Under the pieces are notes generated by a model. The model worked only from the letters and a program-made list of their open reading frames with translations. It was not told the DNA's origin and did not search any database. The position numbers were made by a program, and so were the translations under genes. Of a stretch of DNA of 64,000 bases, positions 12,903 through 46,824 are shown piece after piece (the stretch's first letter is position 1; each line of letters starts with the position of its first letter). The DNA comes from Lichtheimia corymbifera B2541. Taxonomy: Eukaryota; Mucoromycota; Mucoromycetes; Mucorales; Lichtheimiaceae. The stretch lies in NCBI GenBank assembly GCA_000697475.1, contig JNEU01001007.1:42352-106351 (forward strand), read 5' to 3'.

Positions 12903-13412
12903 GGTAAAGAGGGGGAGAGAGAAAAGAGGTTGTGCTATTTACACCATCCCATCTGCACCATCCCTGATTGAAACTCAGTTGTTGCACACCTTTAGTTTGC
13001 ACTTTCACGCCTATGCACCATCCCTAGCCACGTGCCACCTCTCCCGCATCACCCTGCTATACACCACCCATATCCTTGCTCGTTGCTATGCGCCATCATA
13101 ACTCCAACTACAATTCCAATGTATTTTATCAGTTGTCATGCAATGGGACCTTAGTTAAAGCTTCATCAAATCCTCTAGTTGAGTGACTCAAAGTCTATTA
13201 TAAACCTCATGAATAAAATTATTGGAATAAGGCATGTAATAACAAGTCTTTTCTCAATAGCCATTTATGTATCTTTTTGTAGGGTTATGATGCTAATGTA
13301 TTATCGGTGGGCGTGCCTTGACTGGGTATGCGCTGTTTAACCGGGGGACCATCAATATCACGTGGTTTCGTGTAAGGCTCATAGATGACAGCTGACCCGG
13401 TATGCATAATTG
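12903..13412. other. Intergenic between WRS1 and the Fanzor locus
   Basis: This AT-rich stretch should contain the WRS1 promoter (transcribed leftward) and the left flank and promoter of the Fanzor gene. No terminal inverted repeat or target-site duplication is convincing by eye, so the left boundary of the element is undefined. Confidence 0.5.
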
Positions 13413-16400
13413 ATGGTTCCCGTCAAAGTTGTCACCACAGACTCTTCTTCCCTCGTACACGTAAGTGCATGTTGTCACACCACAAAGTGTATACTAAACA
13501 CGTTCATCAGATGTCTGCACTCATTCAACCTATCCATAACGTTCTCGTATACAGCTGGGCCGAGTACCCTGATACTTTGAAGGTGTTCCCAAGGAATGTG
13601 GACGATCTCTGGACAAGATGTGGCAATGCAATGCTCGCTCTCCAAAACATGACTGGCACCAATGAAGTTCTCAAGGAACAGGAGAGACGACTAAGAAGGA
13701 TGGGATTACGCGTGGAGAAGGCAGCTACCCAAGATTGTGCGTCGACAATCATATCCATGCTCAACGGAAGCACACCGAGTGCGATCAATCTTGCAGTAGG
13801 GAAAACAATACTCCCTGTTCATGGTGACCAGCTTGTTTTCGCCTGCAGCAACCTATTGCAAATGAATACCTTCTTCTTCTCGACTCGTTCGCAGCCGCGA
13901 TTGATCACCCCGCGACATCCATTTGTTTCCTCCGATAAACGCCCATGCATTGCTCTACTTCACCATGTCGATTCTTATGCTGGTACTTCCCAATGGTTCA
14001 ATATCTGTGTTGATGAAAGCAAAACAAATGTACCATCGGTAAGACTTTCCTTTTATTTCGTCGTTTGACATACCCAAATACTCATATCAAATCACCCGTG
14101 TTATTAGATATCACAAGGAGCGCCATCTGTAAGCAAGTCGTATCCAACTCCACCAGCATTTCCATGAGCGGGTTCATCAAAATCCCACAAGGAACCTGTT
14201 CGTACCAACATAAGCGATGATGCGCTTACTGCTGCTATGAACAAGCACCTTGAAATTCACATCACCAGCTTGTATAAAGCAAAAGTGCTGAAAGGACGCG
14301 AGACTTTTGATGCTTTCTTTGAGAAGGAGTTGAAGCTGAAGAATTTTCCAAAAGTCAGGCCAGCTGTCATGAACGATTTATTTGGAGAGGACACAGAAAA
14401 CCATCCTTCAGCAGCTTGGCTGTCAACGAATCTCAAGAAGATTGGATACACCATTGAGCGATATCAACAAATCGTGACCACATTTAAAGATCAGCAAATG
14501 CAAGTAGAGCGATCATCTAAGAGTTCCGCAAGTGACACCAGTGGCAGCAGCAGCAGTGGGAGTAGTTCTGGTGACGATGATGACAGTAGACAGCAAAAAG
14601 GCAACACAAAGACAATCCAGGAAACCAGAATTGAAACAGCAACCATGTCGTTGAAGGCATTGTTAAGAGAAGATGTCTCTTATCCTGAGATTAAGCAGCG
14701 ACTTGAAGAGGAAAAGTCTCGATTGGCAACGGATTTTCAATCTCTGAGCACGTGTGTCGACAAGTTAGTTGACATGTTATCGAAGGGAGAGCTCAATCAG
14801 TCATGTGGATATGCTCAGCCTGTTTCAAGGGAGATCGACATGAAAGACGTGGCAAATGATTTCGATTTTGGTGATGGCGCCATTACAACTGTTCTTGTCA
14901 CCCCTCCTCAACACAATCTGACACATTTTCACGACAACAAGCTATTCGAATATGAACATTTTTCGAATTTACTGTCCGGATGCGTTGCCAATTCAGTGAA
15001 CGAAGGAAAAGAGAGATCGGTTTACAAGGAGATTCGAAGACACTTGCTTCCAAAGCTTGATCAATCTGACAAGAATCATCAGCAATTTTGGTTCAATCAA
15101 GCCGTGACTGATATGCTGACTGAATTCACAACATCATTCAAGAACATGTGGAGCAGGGGTCGATTAGAGAGGGATCTTCGTGTTTCCATCTTGGGCTTGT
15201 TACGTGTACGCTTGGCACCACAACGATTACGGCGTTTCATTGAGTATCGCCGTAACGCTGGAAGGAAAAAGACAGAGGCAAAGGAGGTATCACCAAGCAG
15301 CATTTCATTATCAGAAAGTCAGCAAAAGAAGCAACAAAGGTCCCTTATGCGCCGCATTGGTACTGCTGTGATCAAAGGGAAGCCATCTAAAGTCATCCAA
15401 AAGCTGTATCGAAGGCTTGAGCAACTCTCTGAAGCTTCAACTTCAACTTCTACACAATCGGATAGTCAAAGTGAACAAGGTATGTATAACCATTATCTAC
15501 ATGGAATCATTAGATCCACATTCTAACCTCAGTGATAATAGAAGCAGATGACGACTATGATCCCCTTAGTTTGCCACATGCAGAAGAAGAGTTCGAAGAG
15601 GATGTTGATGAGGACAAGGATGAAAAAAGAAAAGAATCGACAGCAAAGACTCTTCGCGCGTTGGTGGCGATATTGAAACGACTTCTTCAATCTGGTTCAA
15701 CAGACAAGGTGTTTACCAAGGAAGATGTTATCAAAACAGCATTCAAAGGAACTACGCTCTCCGATTCAGAAGCAACCGTTGCAGCAGAGATCGCGAATTT
15801 TCTGAACCCTTTTGTGCCCAAAGGAGATGCATTGAATGATATATCGGTGCTTAATGGAGTTTCTATCGCAAAGATTGCCAATGCTATTGTTTCTCTCATC
15901 CAGCCACAGCAAAACATATGGAAATTGAGCCCCTCGTCATCGAACTCAAGGGGATTGCCTCTTGGGGCTGTGGCACTATACCAGATATTGAGAAAAGAAT
16001 ACGAGATTCCATGCAGCAGCACCCAATCTGGATACATCACCAACGTCGATCAAGCAAGAGAGGCAAAGAAGGAACTCTTCCGATCTTTCTTTGATGTGGT
16101 CAAGATGAAGCAGTTTCTTCAATCACGTGGCCTGGACCCATATTGGAGGATAACGTATGTCGACAAGTGGAGAATCAGAATTTTGGGGAAGAAGACTATC
16201 TATCGTACGGTGGAAAGGAAATCTAAGAAGCCACCAAAGACAAGAAAGCAGCACCGGGGCCGTAAGAAGAGAAAAAAGAAGCAAGATGTCGTAAGAGAGA
16301 AGCTGATGAAGAGCATAATACCAAGAAGAGGCACAAGAAGGCTGAACATGATGAAGACCAAGAGGTGGAAAAGGTGGCAAAGGAGCTCAAGGAAGTTCGA

Positions 16401-17848
16401 TCACAGTTGTCCAAGGAAAGGAAGGAGCATACCAAGCTTGAACGTGCTCGAGCAGAAAAGGGACGAGCTTTTAGAAAAGGAAGGAAGACCGGGAACTGGG
16501 ATGCATCATTATACGCGGAGCTGAAGAAAGCAAGAGATAATGTCAATAACCATTATCTGAAGATGGATTCACTGAAGGAGAAGAGTAGTCGCCTATCCCA
16601 GAAGCTATTTGAATTGCAAAGGGGAGTGTCTTTGAAGGACGTAAAACGTGAAACAAAGCAAGACGAGTCAAGACATGTATGTACCATTAAATTTATTGTA
16701 TTGTTCATATCAATGCCTGACATTGGATATATAGAAGGCATCAAATATTATTCAAGAGCATATACAAGGGGAGCTGGGGTTGGGTATCACCGGCACGGAC
16801 CCTGGCATTGTCACCACTGCCACTATCGCAATAGTATCTGCTGACGAGCACATCAAACATATTCAAGATTTCGCTTCGCTTAAGACTTCGGATGATGAAG
16901 AGGTGCAATCATCCTCAGCACAACATGAGGCACAATCATTGTCATCAGCAAGTGTGGAACCACCATTGTCATCACAGCATGAGGCACAATCATCGTCACT
17001 ACAGCATATGGAGCCATCATCGTCTTCGCAACATGTTGTCGAGCTATTAACTACCTCATTTACACCATCACATTCATCTACACAACCACAGCAACCATCC
17101 CACCAATCCGATGAGCCTTCAACAACCAAGCCAACCCAACAGAAATCGCCATCCCAGCCAAAGAAGACAACTACAATCAACCTCACAGCCAAACTTGTAT
17201 CAGACCGTACATTTACCACCATCCATCGGCGACAGCGTGAATGGAGAGAGAAGCATAAAAAGGATACGACATCCACCAAGCGAGCGAAGCAGGCCAGGAC
17301 ACGTGAAATTCGACGCAATCGGTTTTATTGCAAATTTGGATCCAATGTTCGACACAAAGCTGCTGCAACTGGTGAGAAGAAGGCTTGGAGCGTGATGAAT
17401 TTCTATGGATCATGGACAGGAAGAAACAGCAGGGTCAAAGGGCATTCGCGTGTAGGAAGTCAACAGAAGATCCAAGAAAGAATGAATTGTCCTGAGAATG
17501 ATCACGTGCTTGTGGTGGACGAGTACAATACTACAAAGACTTGTGGGAGTTGTTTACACCCGGTGGAATTGCAATGGCAGCGACAAGAAGATGGCACCTA
17601 TAGGCGTTGTAAAGGGGCGGGTCAACTGCTCAAATCCTCGTTGTCCACGTCGACTTGCCAGTAATCAAACTACCAAGGGTCGAGATGCATCTGGAGCTGA
17701 GAATATTGCCCTTTCTGGATTATCAACGTTGATGTCTACAGATTCCAAGCCCTTACCAGCATTTCAGCGTGGGGGTCATACCACAGCGTATCATCTCGCT
17801 GCACCATATCAATCCAAAACCATCATCGGGGCCAGTTCTGGCCACTAA
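13413..17848 (+). pseudogene. Fanzor (eukaryotic TnpB-like RNA-guided nuclease), apparently interrupted copy
   Basis: Reconstructed exons: 13413-13460, 13511-14038, 14108-15479 (probably with another intron at 14129-14191), 15533 to about 16260, about 16266-16676, 16735-17848; roughly 1,380 residues. The C-terminal third carries the split RuvC nuclease: RuvC-I GITGTDPGIVTTATIA (Asp codon 16798-16800), a Glu in VVDEYNTTKTCGSC (17521-17523), a four-Cys zinc finger (CGSC at 17542-17553; Cys codons 17627 and 17642), and RuvC-III KGRDASGAENIA (Asp 17684-17686). This order and the DEYxTxxxCxxC string match Fanzor proteins, eukaryotic relatives of IS605/IS607 TnpB that cut DNA using an RNA from the element's 3' end. 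The N-terminal part (helical, Ser-rich and acidic linkers, coiled coil around 16365-16620) is not recognised. Breaks: a frame change between about 16260 and 16360 without a clear intron, and one extra base in the G run 17614-17617 that separates the last Cys pair and RuvC-III from the rest. Confidence 0.85.
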
Positions 17849-18726
17849 TGGTGACCACACTTTGTATCATACTTTGTATGTGGATAAAATTATGGGTAAG
17901 CCATTCTGTCTAGCTCTACGATTTAGTGACTAACATGGATGGTGTAAATAGCTCAAGCCACAATTCTGTGGAGATATAGTAACGAAAACATCCATGGCTG
18001 GTTCCTTTTTAATTACACACCATAGTAGAATGATCCATTTCAACAATAAACACAATCACCGGACGCAATTCCTCATTTAAATGTGTGGTCCCATTATGCT
18101 TTACTACCACCAAACTATTGTCTTTATGTCCTTTTATTGCAAAACAACAAGGTGGTTGCTATGGCTACGCCTTATAATTGCTGATTCAATCATAACCTAT
18201 CATGTATTGCTTTGCTAGCATTAGCTGAGTGTATTAATTCGTATGAACAACTTGAATGGATCTTCTCCTTGCAGATAAGCAATAACAACAAGAAGGGATC
18301 CTCTGGTCGATAATAGTTGAAGGCTCACCACCACCCGAAGGATTGATGATATTATTCGTTAGCACTTTGAATAATGCAATGCATAGTTCGAGGATATCGC
18401 GGAGTGAAATATGATCACACACAACATACACACAAGCAGTTTACGCCCAAACACTGGGAGGCATGACAATGTGCATACACTTTCATCTCGGGTGGAGTGA
18501 ACAATTCCCTTTCTTTCTTTCTCTCTCTCTCTTCAATCAACCATAGAAAAAAGCCCATTCTTTTTATTATCAAAGAGACACCAGCACACAAAGAGGATTC
18601 GATTTCACTTTTCCTTTCTTGTACCACAATCAAGTCAACTCTCTCACGCATACTCACGCAACCCATATACGTCCTTGATCACCTCTTCACCATTTTGTTC
18701 TATATACGCGTCCAACTATTCAACTC
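17849..18726. other. Fanzor 3' flank (possible guide-RNA region) and promoter of the carrier gene
   Basis: No gene is seen. In Fanzor and TnpB systems the guide RNA starts near or inside the 3' end of the nuclease gene and runs into the element's right end. Two small perfect stems are visible: 5 bp with a 4-base loop at 17830-17843 (inside the last codons) and at 17958-17971. They are short and could be chance. The element's right end cannot be placed. The last ~250 bases before 18727 contain a CT-rich tract (18505-18535) and act presumably as the carrier gene promoter. Confidence 0.4.
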
Positions 18727-25170: not shown

Positions 25171-27266
25171 ATGGCTCAAGAGGATGGCGATACCCGTAGC
25201 TACAACTCTCACCAAAGCACCAACAATAGCACATCAGCCCTTCATGACGATAATACCAGACGGCGGAAGAATAACGACGATGCTGCATCAACAAACACAG
25301 AGGTAATTATATACCATCCATGATCCATGATCTGCAGTCATTAATTCATATTAAATATATTAGAAAAGCAAAGCTGGAAAGCTGATGGCTCGTATCTCGG
25401 GTGTGCGTGATTTGCTAGGCGTCGTCTTTTTGCCTATTCTCAACGTCATCTTCACAGCCATTATGATGGGTCTTTTAATCTATGCATATTCCACGGCGAA
25501 TGGGAAACCTTTGGACTATACAATTGGCAGTATGAACGTTCCAACATTTGTATCCTTGATCACTACACTTCTCAAAATGGGTATCATGGGTGGTATTGGA
25601 TAGTAAGTTCGAAGCTTGGATATGGCTAATTACACCTACTCAAATGGTTCTGTAACATAGCGCTATTTCCGAGTATAAGTGGGTGCGATTCCAGAATGGT
25701 GGTCAACTCAGCTTGCTTGACGTGTATGATGCTTGCACACGTGGTGTTGGAGGTTAATATCATACTTTCACCTTGTTGTCATTTACCTTTGTTTAATTGA
25801 TGGTGGGTTGTTGAATAGGTGTAATTCGTGTGTTATTGTCGATCCGAATGGATACTATCCTTATCCCAGCTGTTATCTTCCAAATTGGTCTTATAGCCTT
25901 GGGACCAGCAGCACAAGAGATTCTTGCAAACTACGATGAAACGGTTTCATGTTATATCGATCCTCCTGGTCGACCATTGTATGTCAAAACGTACCACTCT
26001 TGGCAGTGGTACAAAGTACCACAACCCCATCGTGCACCACAGCTGAAGGGTATTAAGCAGGATTACGTTCCAAAGATTGGATTCGGTGCAGCATACGCCA
26101 ATAGTACCACTGGTCTTGTCAATTACATGTACAACTTGTACTCGATCAATACCACCTGGCACGACGTTGCAACTATGCGCAATGATATTGATTGCGTGAC
26201 AGGATCCTACGCAGATACACGTATCATTAACGACCAAACATTGAATGTCAGCACGCTGAGCGAGTATTTTGGAAGCGGACGACCAATCGATGTCCCTCGT
26301 ATGTTTTATGCAGAGTCTATGTATAATCGTACGCATTATGATCGCGAACGCCTGTTCTTTGATATTCTGGATACAACAGCCTATCATCCTGAAGATCGAC
26401 CCTTAGTAGGTGACCAAACGGTTGTCATCGTTACCGAAGGCAGACAAGCAATCAGTAGCAGCTTAAACAATCCTGAGGAAGAAGCAACGGTTGAAATATG
26501 CACGTTACGATCCTATATCACCAACAGCACTATGGTCGAATCCGGCACACTGAATGTTGAAATCCGACCTACGTGGGAGAACAAGCGACTTATTGATATG
26601 GACTATGACAGGCTGCTGAATGGCAGTGTCCTGGATTTGTCCTTCTCTGAAACAGGAGACCACACATACGACAATGCTTATGCCTATCAGCTCAGTCTCA
26701 TTGCCACTATGACCGACCCCAAAAATGCAAAGTTTCATCGAAAATCAGCTGATCGATGGGCTACTGCTGTGCCGGAAAATGTGGAGAACGTGTTCACCAA
26801 TTACATCAGAGATGGATTCTACATGAGCGATCTTTTCATGACCTTTTATGCACCTGAGGAGGATTCTCCTTCGAGAGCTATCTATGGTGATGCTTGTTTC
26901 GCCAATGACACAACCTATAACTTTGATCAAGGTGCCTATTTGGGCTTGTCATTAGCACCCGTTGTGCCACTTGCATGGTGGGTTGTATTGTGGATCATTA
27001 GTTTATACCAAACCAACGGCATATCACGTGGCAATTCACAAATCGCCTTGATGGCAACCGGCCTCACACACCGCGTCTCAGATCGATTCAAAGGATTCTC
27101 TCATACGGGTCAAGCTCAAATTTTCAGCCAGGCTTCCAAGGTGAAGGCTTGGTTTGGTGAAATTAGACGCAGTGATGGTCGTCGTGGTCACGTTGCTTTT
27201 GGCCTTGAGGATGAAATTCAGCCGTTGCGTGTAAGGAATCAACGCAATGATGAGGCAGCAGCTTAA
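25171..27266 (+). CDS. Two-ended membrane glycoprotein with large extracellular domain, paralogue A
   Basis: Four exons (25171-25302, 25364-25602, 25661-25752, 25819-27266) give 636 residues. After a polar Ser/Asn-rich N-terminus there are hydrophobic helices near residues 58-84 (GVVFLPILNVIFTAIMMGLL), 98-115 and 155-180 (TILIPAVIFQIGLIALGPAA). A ~350-residue hydrophilic region follows with many N-glycosylation sequons (NST, NTT, NVS, NRT, NGS, NDT), suggesting exposure to the ER lumen or cell surface. Then come a last helix (LGLSLAPVVPLAWWVVLWII) and a basic ~110-residue tail. It is a tandem duplicate of the gene at 29543. I do not recognise the family; no enzymatic motif is visible. Confidence 0.85.
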
Positions 27267-29542: not shown

Positions 29543-31647
29543 ATGGCTCAAGAGGAAGGCGATATCCATAGTCACAATTCCCACCAAAGTACCAGCAGTA
29601 CATCAGCGCTCCACAACAACAATAATCAAAGGAAGGACAGCGATGATGAAGCTGAATCAACCAACACGGAGGTAATTATATACGGTCAATGATCCATTAT
29701 ACGCATTGTTTAACTCATACTGGAATTAACAGAAAAACATATCTGGAAAGCTGTTGGCTCATATTTCGGGTGTACGGGATTTGTTTGATTTGTTTGGCGT
29801 CGTTTTTTTGCCGATTCTCAACATCATTTTCACAGTGGCTATGATGGGACTTTTGCTCTATGCATATTCCACAGCAAATGGGAAAACGTTGGATTACACT
29901 ATTGGCAGCATGAGCGTCCCAACATTTGTATCCCTAATTACTACACTTCTCAAAATGGGTATCATGGGTGGTATTGGATAGTAAGTTTGAAGCTTGGATA
30001 TGGGTAATTACAGTGACTCTAATGATTCTGTAACATAGCGCTATTTCCGAGTATAAGTGGGTGCGATTCCAGAATGGTGGTCAGCTCAGTTTGCTTGACG
30101 TGTATGATGCTTGCACACGTGATTTTGGAGGTTAGTAGCATACAATCACCTTGCTGTCATTTATCTTTGTTTAATTGATTATGGGTTATTGAATAGGTGT
30201 AATTCGTGTGTTACTATCGATTCGGATGGATACTATCCTTATTCCAGCTGTTATCTTCCAAATTGGTCTTATTGCCTTGGGACCTGCAGCACAAGAGATT
30301 CTTGCAGATTACAATGAAACAGTTACATGTTATGTTGAACCGCCTCTTCGAACATTTCAGGTCAAGGATTTCCACCGTGAGCGGTGGTACTTGATACCAG
30401 TACCGCGCAGGATAGCACAGCTGAAGGGGATCAAGCTGGATTATATTCCACAGATTGGATTTGGCTCAGCGTCTAGCAACACCAGCAGAGGCTTTCTCAC
30501 GTATAGATACGGCATCGGATCGATCAACGTCACCTGGCACGACATGCCCACCATGCGGACTGATATTGATTGCGTAACAGACTCTTATGCAAATGCACGC
30601 ATTATTGACGACCAAACATTGAATGTCAGCACGCTGAGAGATTATTTGGGAGCTGATCAGCCAATCGACGTCCCGCGAATATTTTATGCAGAATCAATGT
30701 ACAATCGAACGCATTATGATCGTGAACGACTTGTCTTTGATGTTCTCGACACACCAAATTATCATCCTGAGGATCGACCCTTAGTGGGTGAGCAAACGGT
30801 TGTCATCGTGACGAAAGGTGGACAAGCAATCAGTAGCACTTTGAACAATCCTGAGGAAGAAGCAACGGTTGAACAATGCACGTTACGGTCCTATGTCTCC
30901 AACAGCACTATGACCGAGTCTGGCACGTTCACTGCTGAGATCCATCCCACTTGGGAGAACAAACAACTGATTGAGATCAATTACGATGATTTGCTGAATG
31001 CCACCTACATGGGCCCACGTCACTTTGCTGAGGACAAGCGCGTAATGGACAACGCATATGCTTATCAACTCAGCCTTATTGCCACCATGACCGATCGCAA
31101 CAATACAAAGTTCCACCAAGAGGCAGCCGATCGATGGGCTCTAGCTGTGCCGGATAATGTGGAGAACGCGTTCACCAACTATATCAGAGATGGATTTTAC
31201 AGAAGCGACTTGCTCATGACCTTTTATGCACCTGACGAGCAAATTCCTTCGAGAATCCTATTGGGCGAAGCATGCTTTGCGGACGACATAACATACGACT
31301 TGAATCAATCAGCCTATTTGGGCTTGTCATTAGCTTCAATTTTCCCGCTTTCTTGGTGGATTGTCTTGTGGATCATTAGTTTATACCAAACCAACGGCAT
31401 ATCACGTGGCAATTCACAAATCGCCTTGATGGCAACCGGCCTTACACACAGCGTTTCACATCAATTCAAAGGATTCTCTCATACGGGCCAAGCTCAACTT
31501 TTCAATCGTGCTTCCAAGGTGAAGGCTTGGTTTGGTGAAATTAGACGCAGTGATGGTCGTCGTGGTCACGTTGCTTTTGGTCTTGAAGATGAAATCCAAC
31601 CGTTGCGTGTAAGGAATCAACACCATGACGACGAAGCAGCAGCCTGA
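29543..31647 (+). CDS. Two-ended membrane glycoprotein with large extracellular domain, paralogue B
   Basis: Four exons (29543-29671, 29733-29980, 30039-30130, 30197-31647) give 639 residues with the same helices, sequon-rich middle domain and basic tail as paralogue A. Intron positions and phases are identical. Differences concentrate in the middle domain directly after the third helix (residues about 185-245), whereas the last helix and tail (SLYQTNGISRGNSQIALMAT; KAWFGEIRRSDGRRGHVAFG) are nearly identical. A three-residue insertion creates FDLF after VRDL in the first helix region. Function unknown; a surface protein with a diverging ectodomain is an inference. Confidence 0.85.
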
Positions 31648-45091: not shown

Positions 45092-46125
45092 TGCTGAAAC
45101 CACAAAACATTCGAGTCTAGATTCCTTCGTCAGCTGTAACATATACATTCCTTCCTTAATATCTCATCTCTGACGCGGGGGACCATCTCAATACCACTGT
45201 ACTGTAGTCCTTTCTCCTTTATATTTATATATACATACACTCCTTCTTGTCCTCTATTCTTGTCGAAATAAGCATTTTATATACAAAGCATCGTTCTCTT
45301 TCTATTTGACGGTTACAATATGTTTGATGGCCATCGTTTAGTTTGCATATTGGCATTGACTCATCATTAAACGATACACACTTTCATTATCAAATATTCA
45401 CGAGAATTGTATCTGCGGCTTGTAAACACACTCTTATCAGCGAGACAATAATCACATGTTACAGCTGGCAAATAGGATTTGAGGTCTTTCGCAACAGCAG
45501 CAATGAAACTGGCACATACGATTTCATATAACATCCCGCGAGATGCTGGGGGCTCCGTTTTTTCTTTTCATTCTTGTTGTAGATAAGTTTAGCAATAACC
45601 AATGGGGGCAAGTGAAAGGAGATTTTCAAAGAAAAAGGGGAAAATGGAAATCAAACATAACTGCGACGACCGCCCCTTTGTGTCGAGATCCACCATGCGG
45701 CATGGATGCAAAGGTTCCGCCTTTTTTCGATTTTCGAAAATTGGCGGGGATAACAGCCTCATTGTTATTAGATAGGTAATCATGGGCCATGTGTCACTTG
45801 GATTGAAAGTACCTGCAATTCAGTTTCTCTTGGGAAGGGATGTTTCAGTGCTGTGCATGGATGGATCGCTAATGTCATTGGATATGGATTGATGAATACG
45901 GCACCCCACAAATCAAATACCAACTGCCAACATGCGCGTGATGAGCGTGATGATATCAGGTACGCAGAGAAGGTTTTCTGTTTTTTCTTGTACCTGAGCT
46001 GAAAGTAAATGAAAAAATGCATATAAAGCAGTGATGGATCGCACCATTGCTAACCACCATCATCACCCTCCATACCTTCTCTTCTGCACACACACCCCAT
46101 TCTTTCTTTCTTTTACTTCAACGAT
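45092..46125. other. Intergenic with thaumatin-like gene promoter
   Basis: No gene recognised. A TATA element at 46022-46028 and a CT-rich leader (46070-46120) precede the start at 46126. Confidence 0.6.
46022..46028 (+). promoter_or_regulatory. TATA box of the thaumatin-like gene
   Basis: TATAAAG lies about 100 bp upstream of the ATG at 46126, followed by a pyrimidine-rich leader as in highly expressed fungal genes. Confidence 0.55.
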
Positions 46126-46824
46126 ATGCTGAGCATCATCAAGTTTGCATCCATCATGGCTCTTGCTGGCATGGCCATGGCTGCACCCACTTCATCTCCT
46201 ATCAATGGCACCTCTATCGTCAAGCGTGATAGCGTCACGGTGACCCTGAAGAACAAGTGCGACGTCTCTTTGGATGTACACAAGCTCACAAATGGCCAAG
46301 GCGATCCAGATGGCAGCTATAAGCTAGCACCTAAAGCTTCTCACGATGTCAAGGTTGACTCCCAATGGAAAGGACGCTTTTGGGGTTGCAAGGAAGGTGA
46401 CGATTCCTGCGAGAAATATGGCTCGGCTTCTTCACTTGCCGAGGTTTTATTTAGCGGATTTGAAGGTCAAGACTTTTACGATATCTCGTTTGTGGATGGA
46501 TTCAATTTCCCTATGCGTATTGAGCCACATACCTCCAAGGCTGGATCTGGGTATGATTGCGGTGCTCCCACTTGTTCGTCATTGCCTGAATGTCCCGAGG
46601 ATCTCAAAAACAAGGATGGTTCATGCAGGAGTGCATGTGCTGCATTTGGCACGGACGAATTTTGCTGCACTGGCAAATACAATGGAGATAACAAGTGTCC
46701 CGAAAACGAGTACTCTCGTCATTTCAAGGCTGGATGCCCTGATGCTTATTCATTTGCATACGATGATGCCAAGAGCACTTTTGCTTGTAGCGCAACAACC
46801 TACACTGTCACTTTTTGCCCTTAA
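46126..46824 (+). CDS. Secreted thaumatin-like protein (PR-5 family)
   Basis: Single exon, 232 residues. Signal peptide at 1-19 (MLSIIKFASIMALAGMAMA), then a short propeptide ending in the Kex2-type site IVKR (residues 31-34). The mature part starts DSVTVTLKNKCDVSLDVHK, as thaumatin-like proteins do, and continues with the core blocks WKGRFWGCKEGDDSC, EVLFSGFEGQDFYDISFVDG, FNFPMRIEP, PTCSSLPECPEDL and the C-terminal CPDAYSFAYDDAKSTFAC followed by YTVTFCP. I count 14 cysteines after the signal peptide; plant large TLPs have 16. Family members bind or cleave beta-glucans or act against other fungi; the role here is unknown. Confidence 0.93.
   Translation: MLSIIKFASIMALAGMAMAAPTSSPINGTSIVKRDSVTVTLKNKCDVSLDVHKLTNGQGDPDGSYKLAPKASHDVKVDSQWKGRFWGCKEGDDSCEKYGSASSLAEVLFSGFEGQDFYDISFVDGFNFPMRIEPHTSKAGSGYDCGAPTCSSLPECPEDLKNKDGSCRSACAAFGTDEFCCTGKYNGDNKCPENEYSRHFKAGCPDAYSFAYDDAKSTFACSATTYTVTFCP

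Follow-up and report, generated by a model that had tools for sequence, protein, structure and literature searches.

Fanzors are RNA-guided DNA cutters of eukaryotic transposons, and their benefit to the elements that host them is still open (PMC10711439, PMC10432273). Two active-site signatures, a DPG motif and a glutamate positioned six residues before the zinc finger, separate them from ordinary TnpBs (PMC10711439), and the C-terminal motif of the Fanzor1 family has been described as D-X(125,275)-[TS][TS]-XX-C4 zinc finger-X(5,50)-RD (PMC3627910). Fanzor1 proteins are mostly 600-700 amino acids (aa) in length (PMC11423790), with some of up to ~800 aa (PMC10711439), and an insertion of ~100 aa in RuvC (FRI) has been reported in Parasitella and Rhizopus (PMC11423790). 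The omega RNAs of Fanzors are made at the transposon end, and ghost loci as well as possible Fanzor help to transposons in trans have been described for Spizellomyces (PMC10432273). In Rhizopus, Phycomyces, and Mucor, Fanzor1 elements are known that have MuDR-like terminal inverted repeats (TIRs) and 9-bp duplications but lack a MuDR transposase (PMC3627910). Here we examined a 64,000-nucleotide stretch of Lichtheimia corymbifera B2541 (assembly GCA_000697475.1, contig JNEU01001007.1, positions 42,352 to 106,351, forward strand; hereafter the window), in which an original prediction made from the sequence letters had placed a Fanzor locus between WRS1 and a mitochondrial carrier gene. A multi-exon Fanzor1-type gene was found at window positions 13385-17848 (plus strand), occupying a ~5.03-kb transposon (12930-17959) of which it is the only long gene; this transposon had been missed by the original prediction.

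The explanation that we favor, at a probability of roughly three in four, is that a giant Fanzor1 gene of the RuvC/TnpB family is the sole long gene in a non-autonomous TIR transposon that is moved in trans by a transposase of the Mutator-like element (MULE) type, with RNA-guided retention of the element in its intact copies. The observations beneath this explanation are (i) the anatomy of the gene; (ii) the ends of the transposon; (iii) two sister copies that have internal deletions and are flanked by duplicated target sites; and (iv) a TIR core common to the element and a complete MULE. The transposon setting is of an already known kind, since Fanzor1 elements having MuDR-like TIRs are on record (PMC3627910), and the supplements of the same paper may include a large Fanzor of Mucor as well.

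Anatomy of the Fanzor1 gene

The gene encodes about 1,350-1,390 residues, in agreement with the ~1,380 residues predicted originally, when its exons are joined over GT-AG introns. In a check of splice sites and phase, introns of 58-69 nt fit the frame changes at 14039-14107, 14129-14191, 15480-15541, and 16677-16734, and a fifth GT-AG intron of 47-50 nt at 16291-16337/16340 is less sure. The parts of the gene, compared with a paralogue of the same genome (C362) and with a protein of Circinella umbellata (P0001), are as follows.

13385-14038, plus strand: exon 1, with a conserved FSTR...LLHHVDSY block; start codon uncertain, with a later in-frame ATG at 13511
14108-14128, plus strand: possible 21-nt mini-exon flanked by two GT-AG introns, from the splice-site and phase check
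14192-15479, plus strand: large exon, conserved N-terminal region (C362 31% and 29% in two stretches, P0001 33%)
15542-16290, plus strand: exon with a conserved ...ITYVDKWRIRILG block and a Lys-rich linker at its end (36% identity to P0001 residues 680-918; multiple alignment)
16341-16676, plus strand: charged stretch ahead of RuvC-I, coiled-coil-like in appearance (C362 match; splice check)
16735-17664, plus strand: last exon, with RuvC-I (GTDPG), a Ser/Gln-rich low-complexity insertion, the repositioned glutamate, and the first CxxC; stop after a frame break
17639-17848, plus strand: continuation in another frame, with the second Cys pair, RuvC-III (GRDASGAENI), and the stop codon

Exon 1 is homologous to exon 1 of C362 (26% identity, E 6e-9, one-to-one blastp) and also to the N-terminus of P0001. 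The mini-exon reading of 14108-14128 makes the TGA at 14165-14167 intronic. The stretch at 16341-16676 matches residues 1017-1078 of C362 (26% identity, E 1.4e-6 without composition correction), and its frame differs from that of the preceding exon, which requires either a short intron at 16291-16340 or a frame break. The motif strings were found in Fanzor order where the original prediction had placed them, though split over two frames: the GTDPG of RuvC-I (D codon at 16798) and the DEYNTTKTCGSC stretch (E codon at 17521), whose glutamate stands six residues ahead of the first CxxC (ExxxxxxCxxC), lie within 16735-17664, while the second Cys pair of the zinc ribbon (CSNPRC) and RuvC-III (D codon at 17684) lie in a different frame ending at 17848. 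Spaced repeats of 27 nt at 16910-17017 encode the Ser/Gln-rich low-complexity RuvC insertion, and C362 is without such an insertion.

Membership of the Fanzor1 family

The assignment of the window gene to Fanzor1, as called originally, is supported at the sequence level by motif tests, a profile match to the Spizellomyces Fanzor SpuFz1, a Pfam PF07282 match of the paralogue, and the transposon context. The paralogue (locus L018, C362:88000-97999, minus strand) is intact-looking, with five exons, four introns of 50-62 nt, and 1,361 aa in the same order of motifs and blocks, and is ~30% identical to the window copy. DPG is present at RuvC-I in the window, C362, and P0001, and a second Circinella protein (P0002) has GVDPG; the repositioned glutamate (ExxxxxxCxxC) is present in the window and C362, in which the three acidic residues and the Cys pairs are likewise retained. 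A regular expression of the Fanzor1 C-terminal motif matches C362 and P0001, with the matches beginning at a D earlier than that of DPG. In the window, 245 residues separate the D of DPG from the TT, and the motif elements follow in order, with the second Cys pair and RD in the other frame. The signal exceeds chance, as the translation of 16735-17664 matches C362 at E 1.5e-8 (29% identity) and the last exon of C362 passes in Pfam.

Profile searches gave results of uneven strength. A family profile built from an alignment of C362, the window, and P0001 had SpuFz1 as its sole PDB match at E ≤ 0.01 (E 6.4e-5). In Pfam, the last exon of the paralogue scored above the cut-off for PF07282 (OrfB_Zn_ribbon / TNB; 28.9 versus 26.3 bits), with the window piece (14.8 bits, E 0.033) and P0001 (18.6 bits) under it. 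Single-sequence PDB searches with window pieces returned no Fanzor at E ≤ 1, with no match at all for the 16735-17664 piece, and those with C362 returned weak matches (SpuFz1 at E 0.055; PpFz1 of Parasitella at E 0.37 for the last exon). No NCBIfam TnpB profile matched the window piece, the C362 exon, P0001, or P0002 at E ≤ 0.1, and these profiles did match four other loci of the genome. When profiles were compared with those of four further zinc-ribbon loci in the genome, the same active-site stretch was aligned (E 1.9e-4, at a probability of only 48%). Weak profile matches in the PDB (SENP1 at E 0.21-0.35; ALIX and others) were treated as chance, and no viral relative was confirmed among 41 pattern matches. 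Other PF07282 open frames of the genome (L001, L002, L003, and L005 on C363, C312, C364, and C281, respectively) probably represent Fanzors from different lineages, L002 and L003 sharing 79% identity with each other.

A long and conserved N-terminal part

Ahead of RuvC-I lie ~1,100 residues (1,139 in C362). This long N-terminus belongs to the protein, because C362 (1,361 aa) and Circinella umbellata P0001 (1,415 aa) have the same. Among ~5.8 billion proteins at least two relatives were found, P0001 and P0002 of Circinella minor (975 aa); the searches scored 7,979, 7,993, and 1,755 candidates, and more relatives may exist. At 1,361-1,415 aa, the family is well outside the Fanzor1 sizes published in PMC11423790 and PMC10711439, size not being a criterion of membership. 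The N-terminal part, described originally as large and unrecognised, had nothing significant in Pfam or PDB searches and is ~26-44% identical among the window, C362, and Circinella in aligned stretches. A literature search joining Fanzor with genus and order names returned, among the matches listed, one paper that mentions Fanzor, that on the PpFz1 structure.

The FSTR...LLHHVDSY block of exon 1 is one that we took to be OTU-like. A derivation of exon 1 from OTU- or protease-like sequences was rejected, as no Pfam OTU match was obtained at E ≤ 10, and a genome-wide PF02338 search gave two loci, neither of them a Fanzor locus.

It could be that the giant protein has ceased to act as an RNA-guided nuclease, with RuvC as a remnant and the ~1,100 residues serving a different purpose, for instance the binding of DNA for the transposon; the conservation of this part across the compared lineages, its lack of a significant Pfam name, and the absence of the repositioned glutamate from P0001 would agree with such a change. 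However, the three acidic residues and Cys pairs retained in C362 and the window speak for the nuclease, and we judge the loss of that function improbable.

Transposon ends, sister copies, and insertion scars

The element is delimited by the following ends.

12930-12949, plus strand: left TIR arm (TTGTGCTATTTACACCATCC), 20 nt, 95% complementary to 17937-17956 at a distance of 4,987 nt
17937-17959, plus strand: right TIR and right element end (...GATGGTGTAAATAGCTCAAGCC), identical in sister copies C415 and C419

A comparable TIR pair was found in 0 of 100 mononucleotide-shuffled pairs of the 120-nt flanks. Two internal-deletion derivatives of the element, 96-99% identical to the window, were identified elsewhere in the genome: C415, in which window 12946-13541 is joined to 17365-17960, and C419, in which 12973-13180 is joined to 16862-17959. 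Directly outside these derivatives are 11-bp repeats (AAGTTTTCTAG and TAATTTTCCGA) with TTTTC common to both, and in each case the duplicated target starts directly after GCC. The 3′ end is the same in the window, C415, and C419, and the 5′ ends vary among these three and C244. Fragments of the Fanzor element were also detected at C244 and C59, and Circinella-like fragments at C219, C317, C106, and C264. The Fanzor fragments at C106:412-687 and C264:412-687 have identical coordinates and scores, possibly as a duplicated contig end in the assembly. TIR matches on C377 and C363 were rejected as further Fanzor copies or transposase donors, no Fanzor or transposase being recognised among the stop-to-stop open reading frames (ORFs) listed for the surrounding sequence.

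State of the window copy

Inside the zinc ribbon, a one-base difference in length separates the window from both sister copies, and these have a single open frame from before the zinc ribbon into RuvC-III, whereas the window copy as assembled stops at 17664 without RuvC-III. With its zinc-ribbon frame interrupted in the assembly, the window copy has probably ceased to function as an enzyme, and a working nuclease at this position is not supported; the single-base difference could also stem from an assembly error. Read as a decayed relic, the window copy would be a dead Fanzor1 transposon with neither product nor guide RNA. This we consider probable: besides the frame break relative to both sister copies, the element has no visible target-site duplication, and the TGA at 14165-14167 and the frame change near 16291-16340 require extra introns. 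Set against it, the other breaks fit GT-AG introns of 47-69 nt that are similar to those of C362 (50-62 nt), the 96-99% identity of the sister copies indicates rather recent movement of the element, and the only break without an intron explanation is the one-base difference that may be an assembly error. The relic reading concerns the status of this copy and is compatible with the explanation favored for the family.

A terminal core in common with a complete MULE

The TIR core GCTATTTRCACCAT has 35 exact matches in the 35-Mb genome (28 with G and 7 with A), compared with 0 for the reversed control. Among the carriers of the A form are the window element, at its left and right ends, and C415 and C419, at their right ends. 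The G form marks either end of a complete MULE (C307:8057-12002) having an ORF with a MULE domain and recurs as facing pairs ~730-750 bp apart on C91, C222, and C314. These pairs (C91:20860-21589, C222:97932-98678, and C314:60251-60998) are probably miniature inverted-repeat transposable elements (MITEs) mobilised by the same MULE family. No MULE domain was detected in six scanned ORF pieces of the Fanzor element, and none of the nine MULE matches of the genome falls within the window. Since the core is common to the Fanzor element and a complete MULE, the terminal sequences suggest that a MULE transposase acts on the Fanzor element in trans. A literature search gave no text pairing Fanzor with Mucoromycota, Mutator-like, or MULE; the idea is in print under the name MuDr (PMC3627910).

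As a side observation, L045 and L053 (C118) comprise a MULE transposase, in which FAR1 was matched below threshold, and after it, at the contig end, a DGNCGFRSL stretch. This stretch is reminiscent of OTU proteases; it was not listed by the genome-wide PF02338 search.

Candidate guide RNA and proposed mode of movement and retention

By analogy only, a candidate guide RNA position was assigned at the right end of the element.

17849-17959, plus strand: 3′ non-coding stretch reaching to the right TIR, candidate omega (guide) RNA position as in described Fanzor loci (PMC10432273)

Rfam returned for the 3′ end a single snoRNA match, far under the gathering score, and the sister copies are too similar for covariation. 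In the favored explanation, a MULE-type transposase would move the element in trans, and the Fanzor of intact copies would use an RNA that is transcribed over the right end and takes its guide from the flanking DNA. By cutting empty or allelic sites, Fanzor would then help the element to be retained. As ghost elements, the short sister copies could supply further guides.

Several results count against this explanation. For the protein, P0001 has a lysine in place of the repositioned glutamate (DKYGTSKTC), and AlphaFold2 models of the RuvC and N-terminal exons were too poor for comparison, the mean predicted local distance difference test (pLDDT) scores being 37 and 43 from alignments of 3 and 4 rows. 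For the element, the right flank of the window copy (ACAATTCTGTG) has no copy at the left; TIRs of C362 are unconfirmed, with a weak 17-nt pair (82%) round the gene and no duplication by eye; and C419 has four stops elsewhere in its matching stretch. For the guide, folding was not outstanding versus shuffles (z 0.77, -1.16, and -1.17 for 111, 150, and 260 nt, respectively), and the 20 bases right of the element had a single genomic place within 3 mismatches (reversed control, 1), with no other target visible. For the transposase, the exact TIR core is present in one of the nine MULE loci (C307), with a shorter part (GCTATTTGCACC) at the left end of C118. A looser scan (up to 8 mismatches of 22, 1,500-nt flanks) matched eight of the nine MULE loci, mostly as noise, with C343 closer by count (5 mismatches, without the core) than C307 (6); because of this breadth, only the core was taken as informative. 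Target-site duplications are 8 bp at C307 (CGACATTT) and C222 (GCCAAACG) versus 11 bp in the Fanzor derivatives; that of C314 is ambiguous owing to an A-run, and none was found for C91.

A duplication of 8-9 bp is expected of a non-autonomous MULE element, and the 11 bp of C415 and C419, with none visible in the window, depart from it. The 11 bp and the varying 5′ ends do not fit a plain MULE product and recall MCi-2, a Fanzor1 element of Mucor circinelloides whose duplications measure 11-12 bp (ATAATTNNNN(N)), whose 5′ ends are fuzzy, and whose 3′ part is nearly identical (PMC3627910). The Lichtheimia element may be moved by the mechanism of the MCi-2 elements instead of by a MULE, given that both derivatives have 11-bp duplications sharing TTTTC and that the 3′ end is constant while the 5′ end varies. 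MCi-2 was reported without recognisable TIRs, however, while the element described here has 20-nt TIRs with the core of a MULE and of MITE-like pairs, so that we regard this mechanism as possible but on the whole unlikely. The same features, unexplained by the related MULEs (8 bp) or by small Fanzors, are the ground for a bolder proposal in which the ~1,100-residue N-terminus is a new conserved module that makes Fanzor a transposition partner taking part in element insertion. This we rate as a long shot; if true, it would mean a eukaryotic RNA-guided insertion system, beyond a nuclease protecting the copy number of its element.

Returning to the favored explanation of a MULE-mobilised giant Fanzor1 element, a single genome holds a Fanzor1 family of about double size, an intact-looking paralogue, ghost-like copies with clean scars, and a MULE with related ends. 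This combination makes it testable in one genome which transposase moves the Fanzor element and whether Fanzor helps.

Neighboring genes

The neighbors named in the original prediction fit the domains found: a class I tRNA synthetase domain of the W/Y type lies to the left and mitochondrial carrier domains lie to the right. Given these housekeeping genes on both sides and the presence of introns, the Fanzor gene, lying between WRS1 and the carrier, might have been domesticated by the host and not belong to a transposon; this is scarcely credible in view of the flanking TIRs, the two deleted copies elsewhere with target-site duplications, and the frame break. The left TIR arm starts 27 bp upstream of the tRNA-synthetase start codon (ATG 12902-12900, minus strand; gap 12903-12929), and from this position the promoter of that gene would have to lie in, or be displaced by, the transposon. 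Elsewhere in the window are two clearly similar open frames in tandem (25815-27266 and 30193-31647, plus strand; 483 and 484 residues, respectively), the first without a Pfam match at E ≤ 0.001, and a gene for a thaumatin-family protein (46054-46824, plus strand; PF00314, E 3.8e-43).

Comparison with known systems

The likeness to bacterial TnpB (IS605/IS607) consists of RuvC and a zinc ribbon; the repositioned glutamate and DPG are, by difference, features of Fanzor and pro-Fanzor (PMC10711439). With SpuFz1 (PDB 8gkh), encoded by the SPu-1 element of Spizellomyces punctatus, alignment revealed in common the glutamate position of DEYKTSxxCxxC and a zinc ribbon with a CxxxxC second pair followed by an RD-type RuvC-III; SPu-1 is likewise a TIR element without its own transposase and with ghost copies (PMC10432273, PMC3627910). 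It differs in encoding 633 aa in one open frame of a ~2.1-kb element with putative TA duplications (PMC3627910), compared with ~1,360-1,415 aa, five or more exons, a ~5-kb element, and 11-bp duplications here. PpFz1 of Parasitella parasitica (Mucorales; PDB 9cf0) is also an oversized Fanzor1, the PDB chain of 1,259 residues including a maltose-binding-protein tag. Its ~100-aa insertion lies inside RuvC and binds cyclophilin (PMC11423790), whereas the extra part described here precedes RuvC-I and, at 1,139 residues in C362, exceeds a whole typical Fanzor1, the RuvC insertion of the window copy being of low complexity. The MuDR-type Fanzor1 elements ROr-4, PBl-3, and MCi-4 of Mucoromycotina resemble the Lichtheimia element in their MuDR-like TIRs and lack of their own MuDR transposase and differ in their 9-bp duplications, compared with 11 bp (PMC3627910). 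MCi-2, which is unclassified among the Fanzor1 elements of Mucor circinelloides, agrees in its 11-12 bp duplications with an AT-rich core, near-identical 3′ part, fuzzy 5′ ends, and large (6 kb) Fanzor part; it is set apart by the absence of recognisable TIRs in its description (PMC3627910), the TIRs of the Lichtheimia element being clear.

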